Positions 6,970 to 46,750 of a stretch of DNA of 64,000 nt are shown here, one piece after another (within the stretch, counting starts at the first letter, position 1; every line of letters starts with the position of its first letter). The notes below the pieces were generated by a model that did no database searches, had not been told where the DNA came from, and saw nothing but the letters and a program-made list of their open reading frames with translations. Source of the stretch: Methylacidimicrobium sp. AP8 (lineage in GTDB: Bacteria > Verrucomicrobiota > Verrucomicrobiia > Methylacidiphilales > Methylacidiphilaceae); contig NZ_LR797830.1 of the NCBI RefSeq assembly GCF_903064525.1, positions 1,116,001 through 1,180,000 of the forward strand, given 5' to 3'. Position numbers and translations under genes: made by a program.

Positions 6970-8022
6970 ATGGGTCTTGCCGCAACGCTGCTTCTGGCTG
7001 GAATGCTCGGGCTTTGGCACGGAATGGGATCGGAAACTATGACGCGGGATGCCTCGACAGGCTCCGGGACCTTCGTTTTCTTGGATGAGTGGGGTCGGCC
7101 GAGCGAGCCTACCAAGGGAGCCTATATTCGGAAGCCGAAGGAGCAATGGCGGTATCTGCTGGGCGATTCGACGTACGCAATCACCAGGGAAGCGGCGACC
7201 GAGCCGCCGTTCTGCGGCCGCTTCATCGCCAGCAAGGAAGAAGGGTTTTATCTTTGCGCCGACTGTGGGCTGCCCCTCTTTTCCTCGGCCGCGAAGTATG
7301 TTTCCGGGACGGGTTGGCCGAGCTTTTTCGCTCCCTTCGCCTCTCAGAACATTCGGCAGGCGGAGGATCGGAGCCATGGGATGGTTCGCCAGGAGATCCT
7401 CTGTGCGCGTTGCGGAGCCCATTTAGGCCATGTTTTCCCCGACGGTCCTCCGCCGACCGGGCTCCGCTATTGCATCAACTCCGGAGCGCTCGTCTTCCTT
7501 CCACAGCATCTGCTCCAGGGTAGGGGAAAGGATGGCGAGCGCTTGGAACGGGCGGCCTTCGCGGGCGGCTGCTTTTGGGGGGTCGAGCAGGCGTTCGAGA
7601 ACGAGAAGGGAGTCGCCGCAGCCTTTTCCGGATATTCCGGCGGCTCAGTTCCGTTCCCGACGTACGAAGAGGTATGCACGGGACGGACGGGCCACGCCGA
7701 AGCGGTGCTTGTCCTCTTCGATCCCAAAAAGATTTCCTACGAAGAACTCTTGCAGAAATTCTGGAGCATCCATGATCCGACGACCCGGAACCGGCAGGGT
7801 CCGGACATCGGCTCGCAGTATCGGTCGGCAATCTTTGTCTACGACGAAGAGCAGAGAAGGGTCGCCGAGCGTTCGCGCCGCACGTTGGACGAGAGCGGAC
7901 GATTCCGCAATCCGATCGTCACGGAGATCGTGCCCGCCGACGGATTCTTCTTCGCGGAAGAATATCACCAGCGATACAACCAAAAGCACGGTATTTCCGG
8001 CGGCTGCGCACACCTCCGGTGA
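6970..8022 (+). CDS. msrBA: Exported bifunctional methionine sulfoxide reductase, MsrB-MsrA fusion
   Basis: Repairs both R- and S-methionine sulfoxide. I chose the ATG at 6970 because GGAGGA lies about 12 bp upstream, giving 350 residues. A hydrophobic N-terminus (about residues 2-20) looks like a signal peptide or anchor. MsrB comes first, with two CxxC zinc pairs (CADCG, CARCG) and catalytic Cys in RYCINSGAL. MsrA follows, with GGCFWG (catalytic Cys), HDPTT, GSQYRS and a C-terminal GGCAHL resolving-Cys region. The more familiar fusions run A then B. Export suggests repair of envelope proteins. Confidence 0.93.
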   Translation: MGLAATLLLAGMLGLWHGMGSETMTRDASTGSGTFVFLDEWGRPSEPTKGAYIRKPKEQWRYLLGDSTYAITREAATEPPFCGRFIASKEEGFYLCADCGLPLFSSAAKYVSGTGWPSFFAPFASQNIRQAEDRSHGMVRQEILCARCGAHLGHVFPDGPPPTGLRYCINSGALVFLPQHLLQGRGKDGERLERAAFAGGCFWGVEQAFENEKGVAAAFSGYSGGSVPFPTYEEVCTGRTGHAEAVLVLFDPKKISYEELLQKFWSIHDPTTRNRQGPDIGSQYRSAIFVYDEEQRRVAERSRRTLDESGRFRNPIVTEIVPADGFFFAEEYHQRYNQKHGISGGCAHLR

Positions 8023-8117
8023 ATTCTCTCCTTTGATCGCGAACGTCACGAGGCGGAGAAACCAAACGGATCGTATCGGCGACTCGTTCAGGAACATAAA
8101 GTTACGGAGGGAGGTCT

Positions 8118-9596
8118 GTGCCGCTGGCTGCTGCCGTTGACCTCGGCTCGAATAGCTTCCACTTGCTGGTCGTGCAGGAGGAGAACGGGCAGATTCGCCC
8201 GATCGACCGCATCAAGGAATCCGTGCGCTTGGCCGCAGGCCTCGGTGCCGATGGAACCTTGTCCCGAGACGCGATGGAACGCGCAGTGCGCTGCCTGGAG
8301 CGATTCGGGCAACGGTTGAAGCCGATCCCTCGGTCGCGCGTCCGGGTAGCCGGGACGAACACCCTCCGGAAGGCGCGCAACGCCTCCGAGTTCATCCAAA
8401 GGGCCGAGAATGCCCTCGGCCATTCGGTCGATGTGATCTCCGGCCATGAGGAGGCGCGGCTGATCTATCTTGGCGTGGCGCACGGCATCCAGGACGACGG
8501 GGGGTTGCGGCTGGTGGTGGATATCGGAGGAGGAAGCACCGAGCTCATTTTGGGCAGAGGCTTGACTCCGGAAAGGATGGAGAGCCTTTTCATGGGCTGC
8601 GTCAGCATGAGCACCGCCTTCTTTGCCGACGGGACGATCACTCCGTCCCGCCTCCGGCGTGCAGAGTTGGAAGCTCTTCGGGAATTGGAACCGATTGCGG
8701 CGGTCTACCGCTCCGCAGGTTGGAAAAAAGCCATCGGCTCCTCGGGGACGATCCTGGCGGTCCTGGAGGTAGCGCAAGCCGAGGGCTGGTCGACGAACGT
8801 CATTACGGCGAGCGCCCTCAAGAAGATCGTTAAGGCGCTTTTGGACGCGCAGAGGATCGACAAGCTGCCTTTCCGGGGACTCGATGAGGATAGGAGGCTC
8901 GTATTTCCCGGCGGGGTGGCCATTCTTTCGGCGCTTTTTTCGTCGCTCGGCATCGAGAGTCTCGATATTTCGCAAGGCGCTCTACGGGAAGGCCTAATCT
9001 ACGATCTTCTCGGAAGGAATTCGGAGGCCGATTCCCGGGAGAAGACGGTGCGGAATCTAGTAGAGCAGTTCCGTATCGACGTGCGACAGGCCGACCGAGT
9101 GGAGAAGCAGGCCTTGCAGCTCTTCGGGCAGGTGGCCGGGAGCTGCCGTCTCACGGAGGAAGATCGCCATTTTCTATCCTGGGCAGCCCGCCTCCACGAG
9201 ATCGGGATGTTGATCTCCTACACCCAGCACCATAAACACGGTGCTTACATCCTTGACCACATCGATATGCCGGGCTTCTCCCTGCGGGACCAGCAGCGGC
9301 TGGCGTTTCTGGTTCGAAGCCATCGCCGCAAGTACCCCAAAGGAGAGCTGCTCCGGCTCCGGGAGGAGGACCGGATGCCCACCTTCTCCTTGAGCATCCT
9401 GCTCCGGATTGCGTGTCTACTGGAGCGGGGACGGCAAGATTCCCTCGTCCCCAGGATCGCGATCGCGGCCGAGGAAGGTGGTTGGAAGCTCCGGTTTCCG
9501 ACGAATTGGTTGCACGAACATCCGCTGACGAAGGCGGATCTGGAAGCCGAAGCCGCGTATCTCGAGGCGACCGAATTCCGATTACGATTCGAGTGA
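8118..9596 (+). CDS. ppx: Ppx/GppA family exopolyphosphatase / (p)ppGpp pyrophosphatase-type protein
   Basis: Hydrolyses inorganic polyphosphate and/or pppGpp; the sequence does not decide which. It has 492 residues with a GTG start preceded by GGAGGGAGG. The ASKHA-fold phosphate loops are visible: AVDLGSNSFHLLV near residue 5 and VVDIGGGSTELIL near residue 137. SSGTILA and the FPGGVAILSAL segment close the ATPase-like half. The C-terminal half has an HD-like helical domain (ARLHEIGMLIS, then RSHRRK). Its 3' end overlaps the convergent cutA gene by 15 bp. Confidence 0.9.
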   Translation: MPLAAAVDLGSNSFHLLVVQEENGQIRPIDRIKESVRLAAGLGADGTLSRDAMERAVRCLERFGQRLKPIPRSRVRVAGTNTLRKARNASEFIQRAENALGHSVDVISGHEEARLIYLGVAHGIQDDGGLRLVVDIGGGSTELILGRGLTPERMESLFMGCVSMSTAFFADGTITPSRLRRAELEALRELEPIAAVYRSAGWKKAIGSSGTILAVLEVAQAEGWSTNVITASALKKIVKALLDAQRIDKLPFRGLDEDRRLVFPGGVAILSALFSSLGIESLDISQGALREGLIYDLLGRNSEADSREKTVRNLVEQFRIDVRQADRVEKQALQLFGQVAGSCRLTEEDRHFLSWAARLHEIGMLISYTQHHKHGAYILDHIDMPGFSLRDQQRLAFLVRSHRRKYPKGELLRLREEDRMPTFSLSILLRIACLLERGRQDSLVPRIAIAAEEGGWKLRFPTNWLHEHPLTKADLEAEAAYLEATEFRLRFE

Positions 9597-11059: not shown

Positions 11060-12328
11060 CTACGCCGCTTCGCGCTCTTGCCGCCGACGAAGAATGGGCG
11101 GACGCTTGCCTTCGACGACGGGACGGCTGATGATGACTTCCTCCATGTCGGTTCGGGAGGGAAGGTCGTACATCACCTCGAGCATGATCTTCTCAAGGGC
11201 GGCGCGAAGGCCGCGCGCTCCCATACCTTTGCGGATCGCCTCCTGGGCCAGCAGCCGCAAGGCATCCTTGGTGAAGGAGAGTTTCACCTGATCCATGGCA
11301 AGAAGCTTGGCATATTGCTTGACCAGAGCGTTCTTCGGTTCCGTCAGGATGCTGACGAGCTCATCCTCGGTCAAGGCATCCAGCCAGGCGAGGACCGGCA
11401 ACCGGCCCACAAACTCCGGGATCATCCCGTACTGGACAAGGTCCTCGGGCTCAATCTCCGCGGGAGCCGTCGGGTCGGTCTCGCTCTGGCTATGAGCCGC
11501 AAAACCCAGGCGTCGCTGACTGCGCCGACGGGCGACAATCTTGTCGAGGCCGACAAACGCGCCTCCGCAAATGAAGAGGATATGTTGCGTATTTAGGCGG
11601 ATGCACTCTTGGTGCGGATGTTTTCGTCCACCCTGGGGAGGCACGTGGCTGACCGTCCCCTCGAGCATTTTGAGCAGGGCCTGCTGCACTCCCTCCCCGG
11701 ACACGTCCCGTGTGATCGACGGGCTGTCGGTCTTTCTCGCAATCTTGTCGATCTCGTCGATATAGACGATGCCGATCTCGGCCCGCTTCACGTCGAAATT
11801 GGCGTTCTGGAGCAACCGGAGAAGGATGTTTTCGACATCATCACCGACGTACCCGGCCTCCGTGAGAGAAGTGGCATCCGCGAGACAAAATGGAACGTCG
11901 AGCATCCGGGCCAGGGTGCGCGCCAGCAATGTCTTGCCCGAGCCGGTCGGCCCGATAAGCAGGATGTTGCTCTTTTCCAGTTCGACGTCCGGATGCTTGT
12001 CCAAGCGGCTCGCCAGACCGGCCGGGGAGCCAGCGCCCTGGGCCAGTACGCGCTTGTAATGATTGTGGACCGCGACCGACAGCACCTTCTTTGTCCGCTC
12101 TTGCCCGATCACGTATTGATCGAGAAATCGGTGGATTTCGCTCGGCTTGGGGATCATCGCCGCGCCAGCGGCCGGAGCTTCCCCTTTTTCTTCCCGATCG
12201 AGGATGTCCTTGCAGACGTTGATGCAGCTATCGCAGATGTAGACGCCCGGGCCCGAGATCAGCTTGCGAACCTCCGCATGGCTCCTCCCGCAGAAGGAGC
12301 ACATGGTCAGTTGCACGGGACGGGCCAT
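11060..12328 (-). CDS. clpX: ATP-dependent Clp protease ATP-binding subunit ClpX
   Basis: AAA+ unfoldase that feeds substrates to ClpP, 422 residues. The N-terminal zinc-binding domain has CSFC and CDSC pairs (about residues 10-36). Walker A is GPTGSGKT, Walker [19 protein letters not shown] is the sensor-2 region. [10 protein letters not shown]-type pore/linker segment and an IGF-loop region follow as expected. It lies 14 bp after clpP in the order tig-clpP-clpX. Confidence 0.97.
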
Positions 12329-12342
12329 GGCACTCCGGTCTC

Positions 12343-12981
12343 CTATGCGATCGTCGGCTCCGGCACCTGCGGGACGGTGACCTTAGTCTTCACGACTTCA
12401 TCGACGATGCCATAGGCCTTTGCTTGCTCGGCCGACATGAAGAAATCCCGATCGGTGTCCTTTTCCAGTCTTTCGAGCGGTTGGCCGGTGTGCATCGCCA
12501 GAATTTGGTTGAGCTGCCGCTTGGTGCGCAGGATTTCCTTGGCCTGGATGCTGATATCCGAAGCTTGCCCTTGAGCCCCTCCCAGAGGTTGATGAATCAT
12601 GATCCGAGCATTGGGCAGCGCGAACCGTTTGCCCTTGGTTCCGGCCGCGAGAAGAACAGCGGCCATGCTCGCCGCCTGCCCGATGCAATAGGTCGCTACG
12701 TCGCAGCTGATGAACTGCAGAGTGTCGTAGATCGCCATGCCCGCCGTGACATAGCCACCGGGCGAGTGGATGTAGATGCTCACGTCCTTCTTGGGATCTT
12801 CCATCTGGAGGAAGAGCAGCTGCGCGATGACGACGTTGGCAATCATGTCGTCGATCGCCACGCCAAGAAAGATAATACGATCCTTGAGGAGGCGGGAATA
12901 GACGTCGTACCGCCGTTCTTCCCGGCCGATCTGCTCAATGACGGACGGAATGATCTGTGCTCTCAAGCCATGGTCTGTCAT
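12343..12981 (-). CDS. clpP: ATP-dependent Clp protease proteolytic subunit ClpP
   Basis: Serine protease chamber subunit, 212 residues. The catalytic Ser is in QAASMAA, the His in MIHQPLGG and the Asp in the [11 protein letters not shown] segment. [13 protein letters not shown] is the conserved oligomer/substrate strand. An N-terminal propeptide of roughly 15 residues precedes the conserved IIFLG start of the fold. The start overlaps the tig stop by 4 bp (ATGA). Confidence 0.97.
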
Positions 12982-14279
12982 ACGGTAGCAACCTTCGCTC
13001 TTTCGATGAGGAAGTCGATTACTTTCTCTGTCAATATCTGCCTTTTGAGTGCCTCCAGGTTTTCCCGGGAAATCCGTTGGATGAACTGTCGGGGAGGAAG
13101 CTTCTGCCGATGCGCGAGAGAAGCGATCGCGCCGGAAAGCTCTTCGTCTGTCACCGTCAGTGATTCATTCCGCGCGATCCGCTCAATGAGGAAACGCAGC
13201 TTCACCCGCTGGGCGGCCAGCCTGCGCGCATTCGCGAAGATTTCCTTCGTCTTCTGCTGAACCACGGACAGAGGAATGCCGCGTTCCTGATTCTCGGCGA
13301 CGATTTCCCGAACGGCGCTTGCCGTCTCCTCTTCCACCAGCGATTCCGGGAGCGGGAATTCGACCGAGCCGAGGAGAGCGTTTACGATGTGGTTGGCTTG
13401 CTCCCGGCGTGCGGCCCGCTTCTTTTCGGTTTCCACCGCGGTTTGCAGCAGCGAGAGGAGTCCCGACTCGTCGGTTCCGGCGATCTCCTTGGCCAGTTCG
13501 TCCGAAAGCGGAGGGACGTGGCGCTCCTTGATCGCCAAGAGGGTGATGGAGTAATCGACTCTCTTGCCGCGGAGCGGTTCAAAAAACCAATCCTCCGGAA
13601 AGGATAGGGACAGCGAGCGGGTTTGCCCGATTTCCATCCCGAGGATGCCCTCCGCGAAGCCCGGAACGAAGATTCCCGGCTTGACCAACAGCCACTGATC
13701 CTCGGCGCGGCCGAGGATTCCCGCCGCCGGAAAAAGTGTAGACAGCGGCTGACCGTCTAGAGTTGCTTCGTACCGAAGCACCGCATAATCGCCTTCCGCC
13801 AGCGGGCGGTTCGGAGCATCGGCGAACGTAGCACGGGTTTCCAGGAGCTTGCCGAGAGCTTGATCAACTTCCTCCTTGCTTACCATCAACTCCAATTTCG
13901 GGATAACCATCGACGAATATTCGGGCAGGGAAAAGGTAGGAGCGCAGTCGACCATGGCCGCGAAAGAAAAGGAAAGCCCGGGGAGGTAACGGACATCTTC
14001 GGTTCCCAGCCCGCGGACCACGTTGAGCTGCTGCTTCTGTACGGCTTCTTGAAAGCCCTGGCTAATCAGCGTTTTCTGCAGCTCGTCATCGATACGTTTT
14101 TGGAACTGCTTTTCCACCAGGGGCACCGGCGCTTTCCCCGGCCGGAACCCCGGCAGCCGGGCCGCTTGCGAAAAACGTTCCACGACTTTCTTGCGGATCT
14201 GCGCGACTTGGTCTGCGGAAACCTCGATCCGAAGTCGTTTCCGGCAAGAACCGAGCTCCTCGGTTTGGACAGTCACCAT
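12978..14279 (-). CDS. tig: Trigger factor
   Basis: Ribosome-associated chaperone and peptidyl-prolyl isomerase, 433 residues. The ribosome-binding signature [12 protein letters not shown] is at about residue 44. The central FKBP-like domain follows ([14 protein letters not shown] to [10 protein letters not shown]). The C-terminal part is helical. First gene of the tig-clpP-clpX operon. Confidence 0.95.
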
Positions 14280-43740: not shown

Positions 43741-43780
43741 CAAAAATGAGAAGAGCGGCACGGGAACCGCGCCGCTCTTC
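43741..43780 (-). terminator. Rho-independent terminator of the minus-strand PAP2/desulfurase-like operon
   Basis: On the minus strand a perfect 10-bp stem GAAGAGCGGC / GCCGCTCTTC is followed by TCATTTTTG. It lies about 50 bp past the PAP2 gene stop and faces the glnA terminator. Confidence 0.82.
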
Positions 43781-43828
43781 CGGGAATCGTTAGAGGAGGA
43801 AACAATTCGATCGAGGTACCTATTTTTT

Positions 43829-44632
43829 TTAACGCGACTGCCCGCGTTTCCGTTCAAGCCACGCATGCCGCGGAGAAGCCGGCGCGGGCTTCGGCCTGGG
43901 AGGAAGCCGCCCGAGGAGCAGCCGGCCGAACCCGATCCCCCATAGCGCGCCCCAGAGCGCGCCTACGGCGACATCCGACAGGTAGTGCTGCCGCAGCTCC
44001 ATGCGCGACCAGCAGACACCGGCGGCCAGCAGAGTCAAGGGAATGCCGATCTCCGGAACCAACGGGAGCACGGCGACCGCGCTCGCCGTCGACGAAGTCG
44101 CGTGGCCCGAGGGAAATCCCTGAAACATGTGGATGCCGACCGGGCCGTAGAAGCCATCGGGGAGATCGGTTCCCGGACGCGTTCTCCCGAACGAGACTTT
44201 CACCTCCGGAGCGCGTCCGAGCTGAAGGGCCGCAGCGGCCGCGGTGGCGTACGGCCGCGGGCGTCCGAAGGAAAAGCGGCAGGCATCCACGCTGAGCCCG
44301 GCGCAGGTAGCGGCGAGCAAGCTAGCCAAGGCAGCCGATCGAATCCGCCGGTTCCGTGCGAGCAAGCCGCCCGTAAAGAGGATCACCGAGACTAGGACGC
44401 TTCCGGGAAAGTAGTCTCCCCAGAAGCTGAACTGCTGCGCAGCTTGTTGGAAGAGAGGGTGATCGATCCGTTCCAAGGCCTGGTAAGCGGAAAAATCCAG
44501 GGGAAACGTGAGGAGAAAACCTGCAATCAAGAGTGCGGAGGCTACCAGAAGCCGCCCCCTCACCCGGTGTTCGGTTCCCGGAGCGGCGGCTCCGTCCTCT
44601 CTGCCTGCGGCCGGGCTCCGGGGCTCGTTCAT
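43829..44632 (-). CDS. PAP2-family membrane phosphatase
   Basis: 267 residues with about six hydrophobic segments. The phosphatase motifs are FGRPRPY (first motif, lacking the usual upstream Lys spacing), FPSGHATSS and SRMELRQHYLSD. Members dephosphorylate phosphatidate, undecaprenyl-pyrophosphate or related lipids; substrate not determinable here. It overlaps the upstream gene by 4 bp (ATGA). Confidence 0.88.
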   Translation of the reverse strand: MNEPRSPAAGREDGAAAPGTEHRVRGRLLVASALLIAGFLLTFPLDFSAYQALERIDHPLFQQAAQQFSFWGDYFPGSVLVSVILFTGGLLARNRRIRSAALASLLAATCAGLSVDACRFSFGRPRPYATAAAAALQLGRAPEVKVSFGRTRPGTDLPDGFYGPVGIHMFQGFPSGHATSSTASAVAVLPLVPEIGIPLTLLAAGVCWSRMELRQHYLSDVAVGALWGALWGIGFGRLLLGRLPPRPKPAPASPRHAWLERKRGQSR

Positions 44633-45834
44633 CGGCCGCCCTCGCCCGGGAAAGGCCGCGAAGCCAAACGCTCCTTCGCCAGCCGCCAGGCGGGCGAGAG
44701 CGATCGTAGCCGTTCGATGACCTTGGGATAGATTCGGCAGAAAAAGGCGACATCCGCTTCGGATGTCTCTCGGCTCAAGGTCAGCTGAACCGCCGAGCGG
44801 ATAAGTCTGGCCGGAACACCGATCGCCCGGAGGACATGGCTACCTCGCAACGATTTGCTGATGCAGCTCGGACCCGCGGCGATCGCCGCGCCCTGAAGAT
44901 CGCAGGCGAGCACCTGCGCCTCCCCCTCGACCCCCTCCGGACTCCAAGAGAGATGGTGCGGGAGCCGTTCTTCTCCGGGAGGCGGACCGTGCCAGTGGAG
45001 TGCGGGAATCTCGTCGCGGATCGCCTTCCAGAGAGTTTCGGCAAGGAGACGCAGGCGGGACACCGAGGGGCCCACGGTCCCGGACGCCAATTCCGCCGCC
45101 TTGCCCGCTCCGACGATTCCCGGAAGATTTTCGGTGCCGGCGCGCAGCCCCTTTTCTTGCGGCCCGCCATGAATCTGGGGCTCGAGGGCCACTTCTTCCC
45201 GTTTGTAGAGAGCCCCGACCCCGACCGGACCTCCGCACCCACGGAAATGCGCCGCGGCGAGCGACACCGATGTCTGAGAGAAATCCACCGGCGTCCAACC
45301 CACGGCCGCCGTAGCGTCGCAAAAGAGGGCTGTTCCTGCTTCCTCGCAGATCCGCCCGATTTGGGCGATCGGTTGGATCGTGCCCGTCTCCCCGTTGGCC
45401 CACTGGACGCAGACCAAGATGGTCCGAGGATCGAGTGCGGCGGCGACCGCGGCGGGGTCGACGCGGCCTTCCCGATCGACCGGGATCGATACGATCTCCG
45501 CCCCCTGTTCGCGCAGCCGATCGAGCGAGCGCAGGACCGCGGCGGATTCGATCGGTGCGCACAGAATACGGGCGCCCGGCTTTCGGTTGGCCTCGTAGAA
45601 GCCTTTGATGGCGAGATTGATCGCCTCGGTTCCTCCGGAGGTGAAGAAAATCTCGGCGGGAGCCGCTCCGAGCAAACCGGCCACCGCCTCCCGCGCCCGC
45701 TCCAAGGCTTCCCGCGCCCGCATGCCGGCGCTGTAAAGGCTCGTCGGGTTGCCGGGCTCCCGAAAAAAAGGGAGCATGGCCTCGATCACTTCAGGAAGGA
45801 CCGGGTTCGCAGCCGCTGAATCAAAGGAAATCAC
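44629..45834 (-). CDS. Cysteine-desulfurase-like (NifS/IscS fold) protein lacking catalytic residues
   Basis: 401 residues with a clear class-V aminotransferase/NifS fold: ISFDSAAANPVLPEV, GNPTSLYSAG, FTSGGTEAINLAIKG, NGETGTIQPI, GVGALYKR and GLRAGTENLPGIVG. But the PLP-binding Lys is replaced: the HK motif before GP.GVGALY reads H196-F197. The His that stacks on PLP is Ser97 (IESAAVL for IEHHAVL) and the Q of DAVQA is Ala176. A Cys remains in GPSCISKSLRG. It therefore looks like a pseudoenzyme. Coupled to the PAP2 gene. Confidence 0.85.
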   Translation of the reverse strand: MISFDSAAANPVLPEVIEAMLPFFREPGNPTSLYSAGMRAREALERAREAVAGLLGAAPAEIFFTSGGTEAINLAIKGFYEANRKPGARILCAPIESAAVLRSLDRLREQGAEIVSIPVDREGRVDPAAVAAALDPRTILVCVQWANGETGTIQPIAQIGRICEEAGTALFCDATAAVGWTPVDFSQTSVSLAAAHFRGCGGPVGVGALYKREEVALEPQIHGGPQEKGLRAGTENLPGIVGAGKAAELASGTVGPSVSRLRLLAETLWKAIRDEIPALHWHGPPPGEERLPHHLSWSPEGVEGEAQVLACDLQGAAIAAGPSCISKSLRGSHVLRAIGVPARLIRSAVQLTLSRETSEADVAFFCRIYPKVIERLRSLSPAWRLAKERLASRPFPGEGGR

Positions 45835-45871: not shown

Positions 45872-46657
45872 CTAGGAAGCCCCCGAGTCCGCCGGCGCGA
45901 CCGAGGCGGATCCGGTCTCTACGGCGGAGGCGTAAATCGGACCAAACCAAGTGTCGACAAGGCATAGCCCGAAAAAGAGGGCAAAAGGAATCGTATAAAA
46001 AAGAGACATCAAAATAGCGTTCAACCCTCCGAGGAAAGCGGAAGCGATCAGGAAGTCGCCGCGATGTTTCCAAAAAATCCGTAAATTTTCCCGGTAATCG
46101 AGGGCGCAAGCGAACACCGACGCACCGTCAAGCCAGCGGCAACAGGCCACGGCGCAAAACGGCACCGCAAGCCAGCTTCCCAAAGGGACAAAAAGAGAAA
46201 GCAACTGTGGGGAAAGCCCCAAGAGCCGGATGAACAAGCCATGGCAGAAGGCGATCCAGAGGACGAGGGGCAAAAGCAACGTCGTGAGGGAAATCACAAA
46301 TTTGACCGCTCCCTCGCGGAGGTATTGTCCGAGAACGTGGAAATTCCATTCGGGTAGTTGCCTCCCGCCGAAGCGGGCCCGGCGGAGGACCTCGAAGGTG
46401 AAGCCCAAGGAGAACCAGAAGCTGGAGACGTTAACCGCCAGCAGGGAAACCGCCAGCGTTTTATGCTGGGCAAGCCAGCCGCCCGCCTTCGGGGCGAGCG
46501 ATAAGAGAATCGGGTTGATGAGAAGAAATCCGCCGAGGAATATCTTCGGAAACCAGAAGCGGTCGGCGAAGATCTTCGCGAATCCGGCGCGGATGTCACG
46601 GAAGAAATAACCGCTATCTCCTTGCTCCCGTGACAGATCGACCGCATGCCGATGCAT
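45872..46657 (-). CDS. Multi-pass membrane protein, DUF4013-like
   Basis: 261 residues from the chosen ATG at 46657; a longer ORF starts at 46720. Several hydrophobic stretches separated by short loops, for example FLGGFLLINPILLSL and VISLTTLLLPLVLWIAF, and a conserved GWLAQHKTLA-like region, match the DUF4013 pattern of four to six helices. No function is known. Confidence 0.6.
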   Translation of the reverse strand: MHRHAVDLSREQGDSGYFFRDIRAGFAKIFADRFWFPKIFLGGFLLINPILLSLAPKAGGWLAQHKTLAVSLLAVNVSSFWFSLGFTFEVLRRARFGGRQLPEWNFHVLGQYLREGAVKFVISLTTLLLPLVLWIAFCHGLFIRLLGLSPQLLSLFVPLGSWLAVPFCAVACCRWLDGASVFACALDYRENLRIFWKHRGDFLIASAFLGGLNAILMSLFYTIPFALFFGLCLVDTWFGPIYASAVETGSASVAPADSGAS

Positions 46658-46750
46658 CGAGTCCCCCTCCCTTCTCCAAGGGCATCGGAGAGATTGGTGC
46701 GGAACCGCACGCAGTGTCAAGCCGTTCGTGGCTTGATCGATCGATCGGCG

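Follow-up and report, generated by a model that had tools for sequence, protein, structure and literature searches.

What does a protein of the cysteine desulfurase fold do once the lysine that forms the Schiff base with pyridoxal phosphate (PLP) is gone? The question is raised by one gene in a window of 64,000 nucleotides, the whole stretch of Methylacidimicrobium sp. AP8 DNA analysed here. An earlier note on this DNA had described its product as a NifS/IscS-fold protein without the PLP lysine and had suggested a PLP-independent or regulatory role coupled to a PAP2 phosphatase. The gene and its surroundings are as follows.

45872..46720, minus strand: DUF4013 protein, directly upstream of the pseudo-desulfurase, start codon uncertain (open reading frame and profile)
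44629..45834, minus strand: pseudo-cysteine desulfurase, a lysine-less IscS/NifS-fold protein of 401 amino acids with a GTG start (open reading frame, profile, PDB and fold matches)
43829..44632, minus strand: PAP2-superfamily phosphatase, its start overlapping the pseudo-desulfurase stop by 4 bp (open reading frame and profile)
43749..43781, minus strand: terminator-like hairpin of 15 pairs after the PAP2 gene, a kind of match no commoner here than in shuffled sequence

The family assignment is secure. PF00266 (aminotransferase class-V) scores the window protein at 180.9 bits and TIGR03402 at 349.9 bits, which places it in the NifS/IscS family, and its phmmer matches in the PDB, which include A. 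fulgidus IscS, are cysteine desulfurases. An AlphaFold2 model built from 50 rows has a mean pLDDT of 92.7, with the loop at 323-328 falling below 50. The model superposes on human NFS1 with Z 54.5, on A. fulgidus IscS with Z 53.4 (rmsd 1.5 over 378 residues, 41% identity) and on E. coli IscS with Z 53.3. The class V aminotransferase/IscS fold is thus present by sequence and by predicted fold, and profiles, model and alignments together bear out the claim of a NifS/IscS fold without its lysine. NCBIfam cut-offs were dropped as a test of desulfurase status; they are uninformative because intact paralogues in the same genome also score under the TIGR03402 cut-off.

The position of the loss requires correction. 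The earlier note read the HK motif as HF, with lysine replaced by phenylalanine at residue 197. The window sequence VSLAAAHFRGCG followed by GPVGVG aligns without gaps to VDLLSLSAHKFY followed by GPKGVG, both with phmmer and with MAFFT, pairing H196, F197, R198 and G199 with Ser203, Gly204, His205 and Lys206 of E. coli IscS. The predicted strand at 192-196 matches the canonical LLSLS strand preceding the lysine and agrees with this register. Because the gap-free alignments put Lys206 at Gly199, the replacements are Lys to Gly and His205 to Arg, and the former reading is off by two residues; equating HF with HK would require two compensating gaps and is ruled out. The relevant residues, all placed by alignment, are these.

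45544..45546, minus strand: Ser97, at E. coli His104 (PLP stacking)
45307..45309, minus strand: Ala176, at E. coli Gln183
45241..45249, minus strand: His196-Phe197-Arg198, at Ser203, Gly204 and His205, the site of the former "HF"
45238..45240, minus strand: Gly199 (GGG), at the PLP lysine site, E. coli Lys206
45235..45237, minus strand: Cys200, adjacent to the former lysine site, the same in every genus member and missing from other relatives
44863..44865, minus strand: Cys324, at E. coli Cys328, the mobile-loop cysteine, invariant across all lysine-less relatives
44785..44787, minus strand: Gln350, at E. coli Arg354, the substrate-carboxylate binder of active enzymes

The roles attached to these positions (stacking, carboxylate binding and so on) are what we take to be established knowledge of IscS/NifS structures. 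On that basis the pocket has lost more than its HK lysine. The replacements of the stacking histidine by Ser97 and of the glutamine near the PLP aspartate by Ala176 hold as first described, and both substrate residues are replaced as well, Arg354 by Gln350 and Asn155 by Gly148. Of the remaining desulfurase motifs, said to be complete, the mobile-loop Cys324 and Asp173 (E. coli Asp180, under the PLP ring) are kept, as are the phosphate-cup residues Thr69 and Thr234, but Asn155 and Arg354 are gone. Cys200 could sit close to Cys324.

Orthologues in five other species of the genus are 69-81% identical to the window protein, and the motif HFRGCGG is identical in all six species; pairwise dN/dS is 0.09-0.20 (YN00, genus pairs where computable). 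The residues are therefore not a sequencing error. That conclusion had been drawn from the TTC codon at residue 197, which is the wrong site, and stands instead on six-species identity and purifying selection; the Gly199 codon, GGG, is two changes from AAG. Sequence comparison finds no substitute lysine at or beside position 199 in any genus member, and none of the orthologues restores HK. In one genome of the genus (G003, 83% complete) no lysine-less orthologue was found and the best match is an HK paralogue, probably owing to an assembly gap.

Orthologues elsewhere in the same order also lack the lysine, carrying Arg (mostly HRFYGPKG), Gln (NPNQFNGPKG, the form in genus g2 of the window's own family) or His instead, and two further Verrucomicrobiota from another collection (L087, L100) have Arg. 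Beyond the phylum, a search of named genomes shows the site occupied by Gln or Arg in Nitrospirota, Gln in Chloroflexota, Pro in Smithella, Ala in Myxococcota, Thr in a euryarchaeon and Leu in Rokubacteria; at least eight different residues stand in for lysine. A phylum-wide search with a lysine-less profile gave one match above threshold outside the order, itself HK-bearing. Across 34 lysine-less rows the columns of loop Cys328 and Asp180 are invariant, whereas columns 206, 354, 155 and 183 vary roughly as much as an average column does; in the comparison set, picked for having the lysine, invariance at 206 is by construction and at 183 and 354 it is not. The pocket has diverged differently in the two main genera of the window's family, with Cys324 retained in both, and the window protein sits on a long branch, its pocket changed more than in its cousins. 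Separately, a set of cysteine desulfurase structures from 2026 (PDB 9wep, 9wer, 9wew, 9wf8, 9wfb, 9wfe, 9wfy) carries successive substitutions and is seemingly engineered; in 9wfy the PLP lysine is Leu.

A tree built without ten active-site columns joins the 22 verrucomicrobial lysine-less rows in a single clade with an SH-aLRT support of 100. The remaining bacterial lysine-less proteins (Nitrospirota, Chloroflexota, Smithella, Myxococcota) form a second group with the euryarchaeon, and A. fulgidus IscS and the Rokubacteria proteins stand apart in the best tree. The number of losses lies between one and four, since the AU test leaves a single clade of all lysine-less proteins standing (p 0.25) and the best tree, which separates them, implies four; a larger tree from all columns needs three label changes. 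The loss in Rokubacteria looks separate and recent because Gln183 and Arg354 are still in place there.

Gene neighbourhoods of the relatives feature IscU, IscR, Mrp and IscA. In another family of the same order (f9), the gene order is IscU, lysine-less IscS, Mrp/ApbC and a DUF4032-like protein, in some genomes followed by IscA; this IscU still has its three cysteines together with the Asp, and by its score it is a NifU/IscU scaffold. In genomes of families f2 and f6 the lysine-less gene is accompanied by Mrp and the DUF4032-like protein but has no IscU, and within the order ISC-type IscU was found in f9 only. No SufBD was detected in five of the six f9 genomes searched (drafts, 89-95% completeness), an absence that is likely rather than certain because the genomes are drafts. 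The HK desulfurases of f9 lie away from the lysine-less gene as solo genes with uninformative neighbours. The DUF4032-like protein after Mrp (about 75-100 amino acids; loci L045, L046, L047, L048, L043, L044, L055, L177 and L178) shares 90% identity across f9 and f2 and is much better conserved than the genes around it. In the second group IscU adjoins the lysine-less gene in seven of nine cases, often with IscR upstream, and in Rokubacteria the lysine-less IscS belongs to a complete isc operon and is followed a short way downstream by an intact HK copy, at two loci.

L136:1480-2670 and 7492-8637: Lys-to-Leu IscS and downstream intact HK NifS
L146:6001-7170 and 11953-13098: Lys-to-Leu IscS and downstream intact HK NifS

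The window's own family (f1) has a different arrangement. DUF4013 lies directly upstream of the pseudo-desulfurase in all nine further genomes checked and PAP2 directly downstream in eight of them, so the proposed link to PAP2 is real as gene order, within a recurrent DUF4013, pseudo-desulfurase, PAP2 operon. A literature search found no papers on DUF4013 together with PAP2, and the suggested regulatory role has found no support so far. The complete 2.3-Mb host genome supplies the intact desulfurases that the earlier note proposed to look for: three further NifS/IscS-type proteins with HK, 37-39% identical to the window protein, and SufS with SufU, accompanied by SufBD. It encodes no IscU of the ISC type, SufU being the sole IscU-family member. 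Two matches to the AMO/pMMO family suggest that the host, one of the Methylacidiphilaceae, is a methanotroph. Outside the window (G000:C1:1026669-1031869), an intact HK desulfurase (L004) lies near three genes for A-type carriers (Fe-S_biosyn); the group may be a separate Fe-S locus.

With the lysine gone, most residues for cofactor and substrate lost, HK restored in no orthologue and intact HK desulfurases elsewhere in the genome, the PLP-independent role first proposed is well supported. From these residues we infer that the window protein lacks desulfurase activity, and from the conservation and neighbourhoods above we infer what Cys324 might do and what the present partner might be. We give a probability of roughly 0.5 to the reading that this is a pseudo-cysteine desulfurase that ancestrally partnered IscU/Mrp through its cysteine and is now a non-catalytic Cys324 carrier or docking protein encoded in an operon with DUF4013 and PAP2. 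Having lost the Schiff-base lysine together with the cofactor and substrate residues, the protein itself would make no sulfide or persulfide, while its mobile loop would still present a cysteine. Ancestrally it may have acted beside IscU, the cluster carrier Mrp or both, its cysteine either carrying sulfur from another desulfurase or ligating the nascent cluster in the manner of A. fulgidus IscS. A cofactor-free partner in Fe-S assembly using its cysteine alone is suggested because many cousins adjoin IscU, Mrp or IscA and some of their genomes have no detectable SufBD, and published work on A. fulgidus IscS and M. acetivorans IscS1 makes such an IscU/Mrp partner the most likely ancestral state (PMC7585200). 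In the window's family of methanotrophic Verrucomicrobiota, which have SUF, IscU would then have been lost and the protein retained in the DUF4013/PAP2 operon, where it most likely still relies on Cys324, serving as a non-catalytic carrier of sulfur or Fe-S or as a docking partner. Against the Fe-S explanation, this family has retained neither IscU nor any Fe-S gene next to the pseudo-desulfurase, and the DUF4013/PAP2 operon points to membranes rather than Fe-S assembly. The long branch and further-diverged pocket may reflect a new function.

Such a function could lie in the old pocket itself, which might bind a new ligand in a catalytic or sensing role tied to lipid or phosphate metabolism via PAP2 and DUF4013. 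The operon is kept across the family, and the pocket set HFRGCGG, Cys200 included, is invariant in the genus, with another set, NPNQFNG, in the sister genus. We consider this unlikely: no ligand is known, and what sister genera share is Cys324 and not the pocket; that genera sharing the operon differ in the pocket counts against one conserved ligand.

A non-catalytic subunit that tunes an intact desulfurase in a heterodimer, on the model of LCB1 and LCB2 in serine palmitoyltransferase, is quite unlikely. IscS-type proteins are dimers, intact paralogues are encoded in the genome, and Rokubacteria hold lysine-less and intact copies at one locus. However, neither in the window nor in its family does the gene have an intact paralogue as its neighbour, the identity to the paralogues given above is low, and an invariant loop cysteine would be unneeded in such a role.

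A working PLP enzyme in which some other residue does the job of the lysine, as His does in ColD, is very improbable; Asp173, Thr69 and Thr234 are retained, yet neither the substrate Arg, Asn and Gln nor the stacking His remains, and across relatives no lysine or conserved base fills the site. Decay into a pseudogene, or an error, would fit the lost catalytic residues but is hardly credible for a gene that is intact in six species, with conserved gene order, an invariant loop Cys and a selection estimate that contradicts it.

In textbook accounts, Fe-S assembly begins when IscS, beside IscU, frees sulfur from cysteine in a PLP-dependent reaction. In whole bacterial lineages, IscU instead lies beside an IscS that is, by sequence, unfit for PLP chemistry, some of them without detectable SUF. 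Lysine-less IscS is previously known from two archaea. In a literature search whose scope left most subscription journals and preprints outside, we found no broad bacterial lysine-less group described and no account of lysine-less Mrp/IscU operons or of a SUF-less genome relying on one. We tentatively propose, at less than even odds, a widespread bacterial class of lysine-less IscS proteins with more than one origin, acting as cofactor-free subunits in Fe-S assembly; in some f9 Verrucomicrobiota a member would sit in the sole detectable Fe-S operon, with SUF lacking, so that sulfur would have to arrive in trans or as sulfide, and in the methanotrophs the protein would have outlived IscU and joined a DUF4013/PAP2 membrane operon. 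If true, persulfide production and the presentation of a cysteine to the scaffold are separable roles of IscS, and the A. fulgidus IscS question becomes testable in bacteria. The annotation "cysteine desulfurase" calls for a one-residue check.

Comparison with known systems places the window protein among several partial precedents. LCB1/SPTLC1 of serine palmitoyltransferase, which forms a proven heterodimer with its catalytic partner, resembles the window protein in being a PLP protein of fold type I that lacks the lysine, but it belongs to a different family, and the heterodimer is a feature of LCB1. E. coli IscS and human NFS1 share with the window protein the fold, the mobile Cys loop and the Asp under the PLP ring, but keep Lys206, His104, Gln183, Asn155 and Arg354, none of which the window protein has. 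Methanosarcina acetivorans IscS1, in which the essential lysine is reported missing and an action like that of A. fulgidus IscS has been suggested (PMC7585200), is likewise lysine-less, but archaeal and paired with IscU1, the likeness being drawn from its published description. A. fulgidus IscS is reported to have no desulfurase activity and to ligate the cluster on IscU through its Cys (PMC7585200). Its structures are PDB 4EB5 (identical to the sequence used here), 4EB7 and 4HVK, with a D199K variant in 4R5F. It has Asp at the lysine site and Leu for Arg354, where the window protein has Gly and Gln, and it partners IscU, whereas the window genome lacks an ISC-type IscU; an IscU beside the gene, as with the A. 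fulgidus kind, is found in f9 and most non-verrucomicrobial relatives but not in the window. The two proteins occupy separate branches in the best tree, with an AU p of 0.25 for a single clade. They nevertheless have in common the IscS fold, the loss of the PLP lysine and Arg354, the replacement of Gln183 by Ala, and the retained loop Cys.
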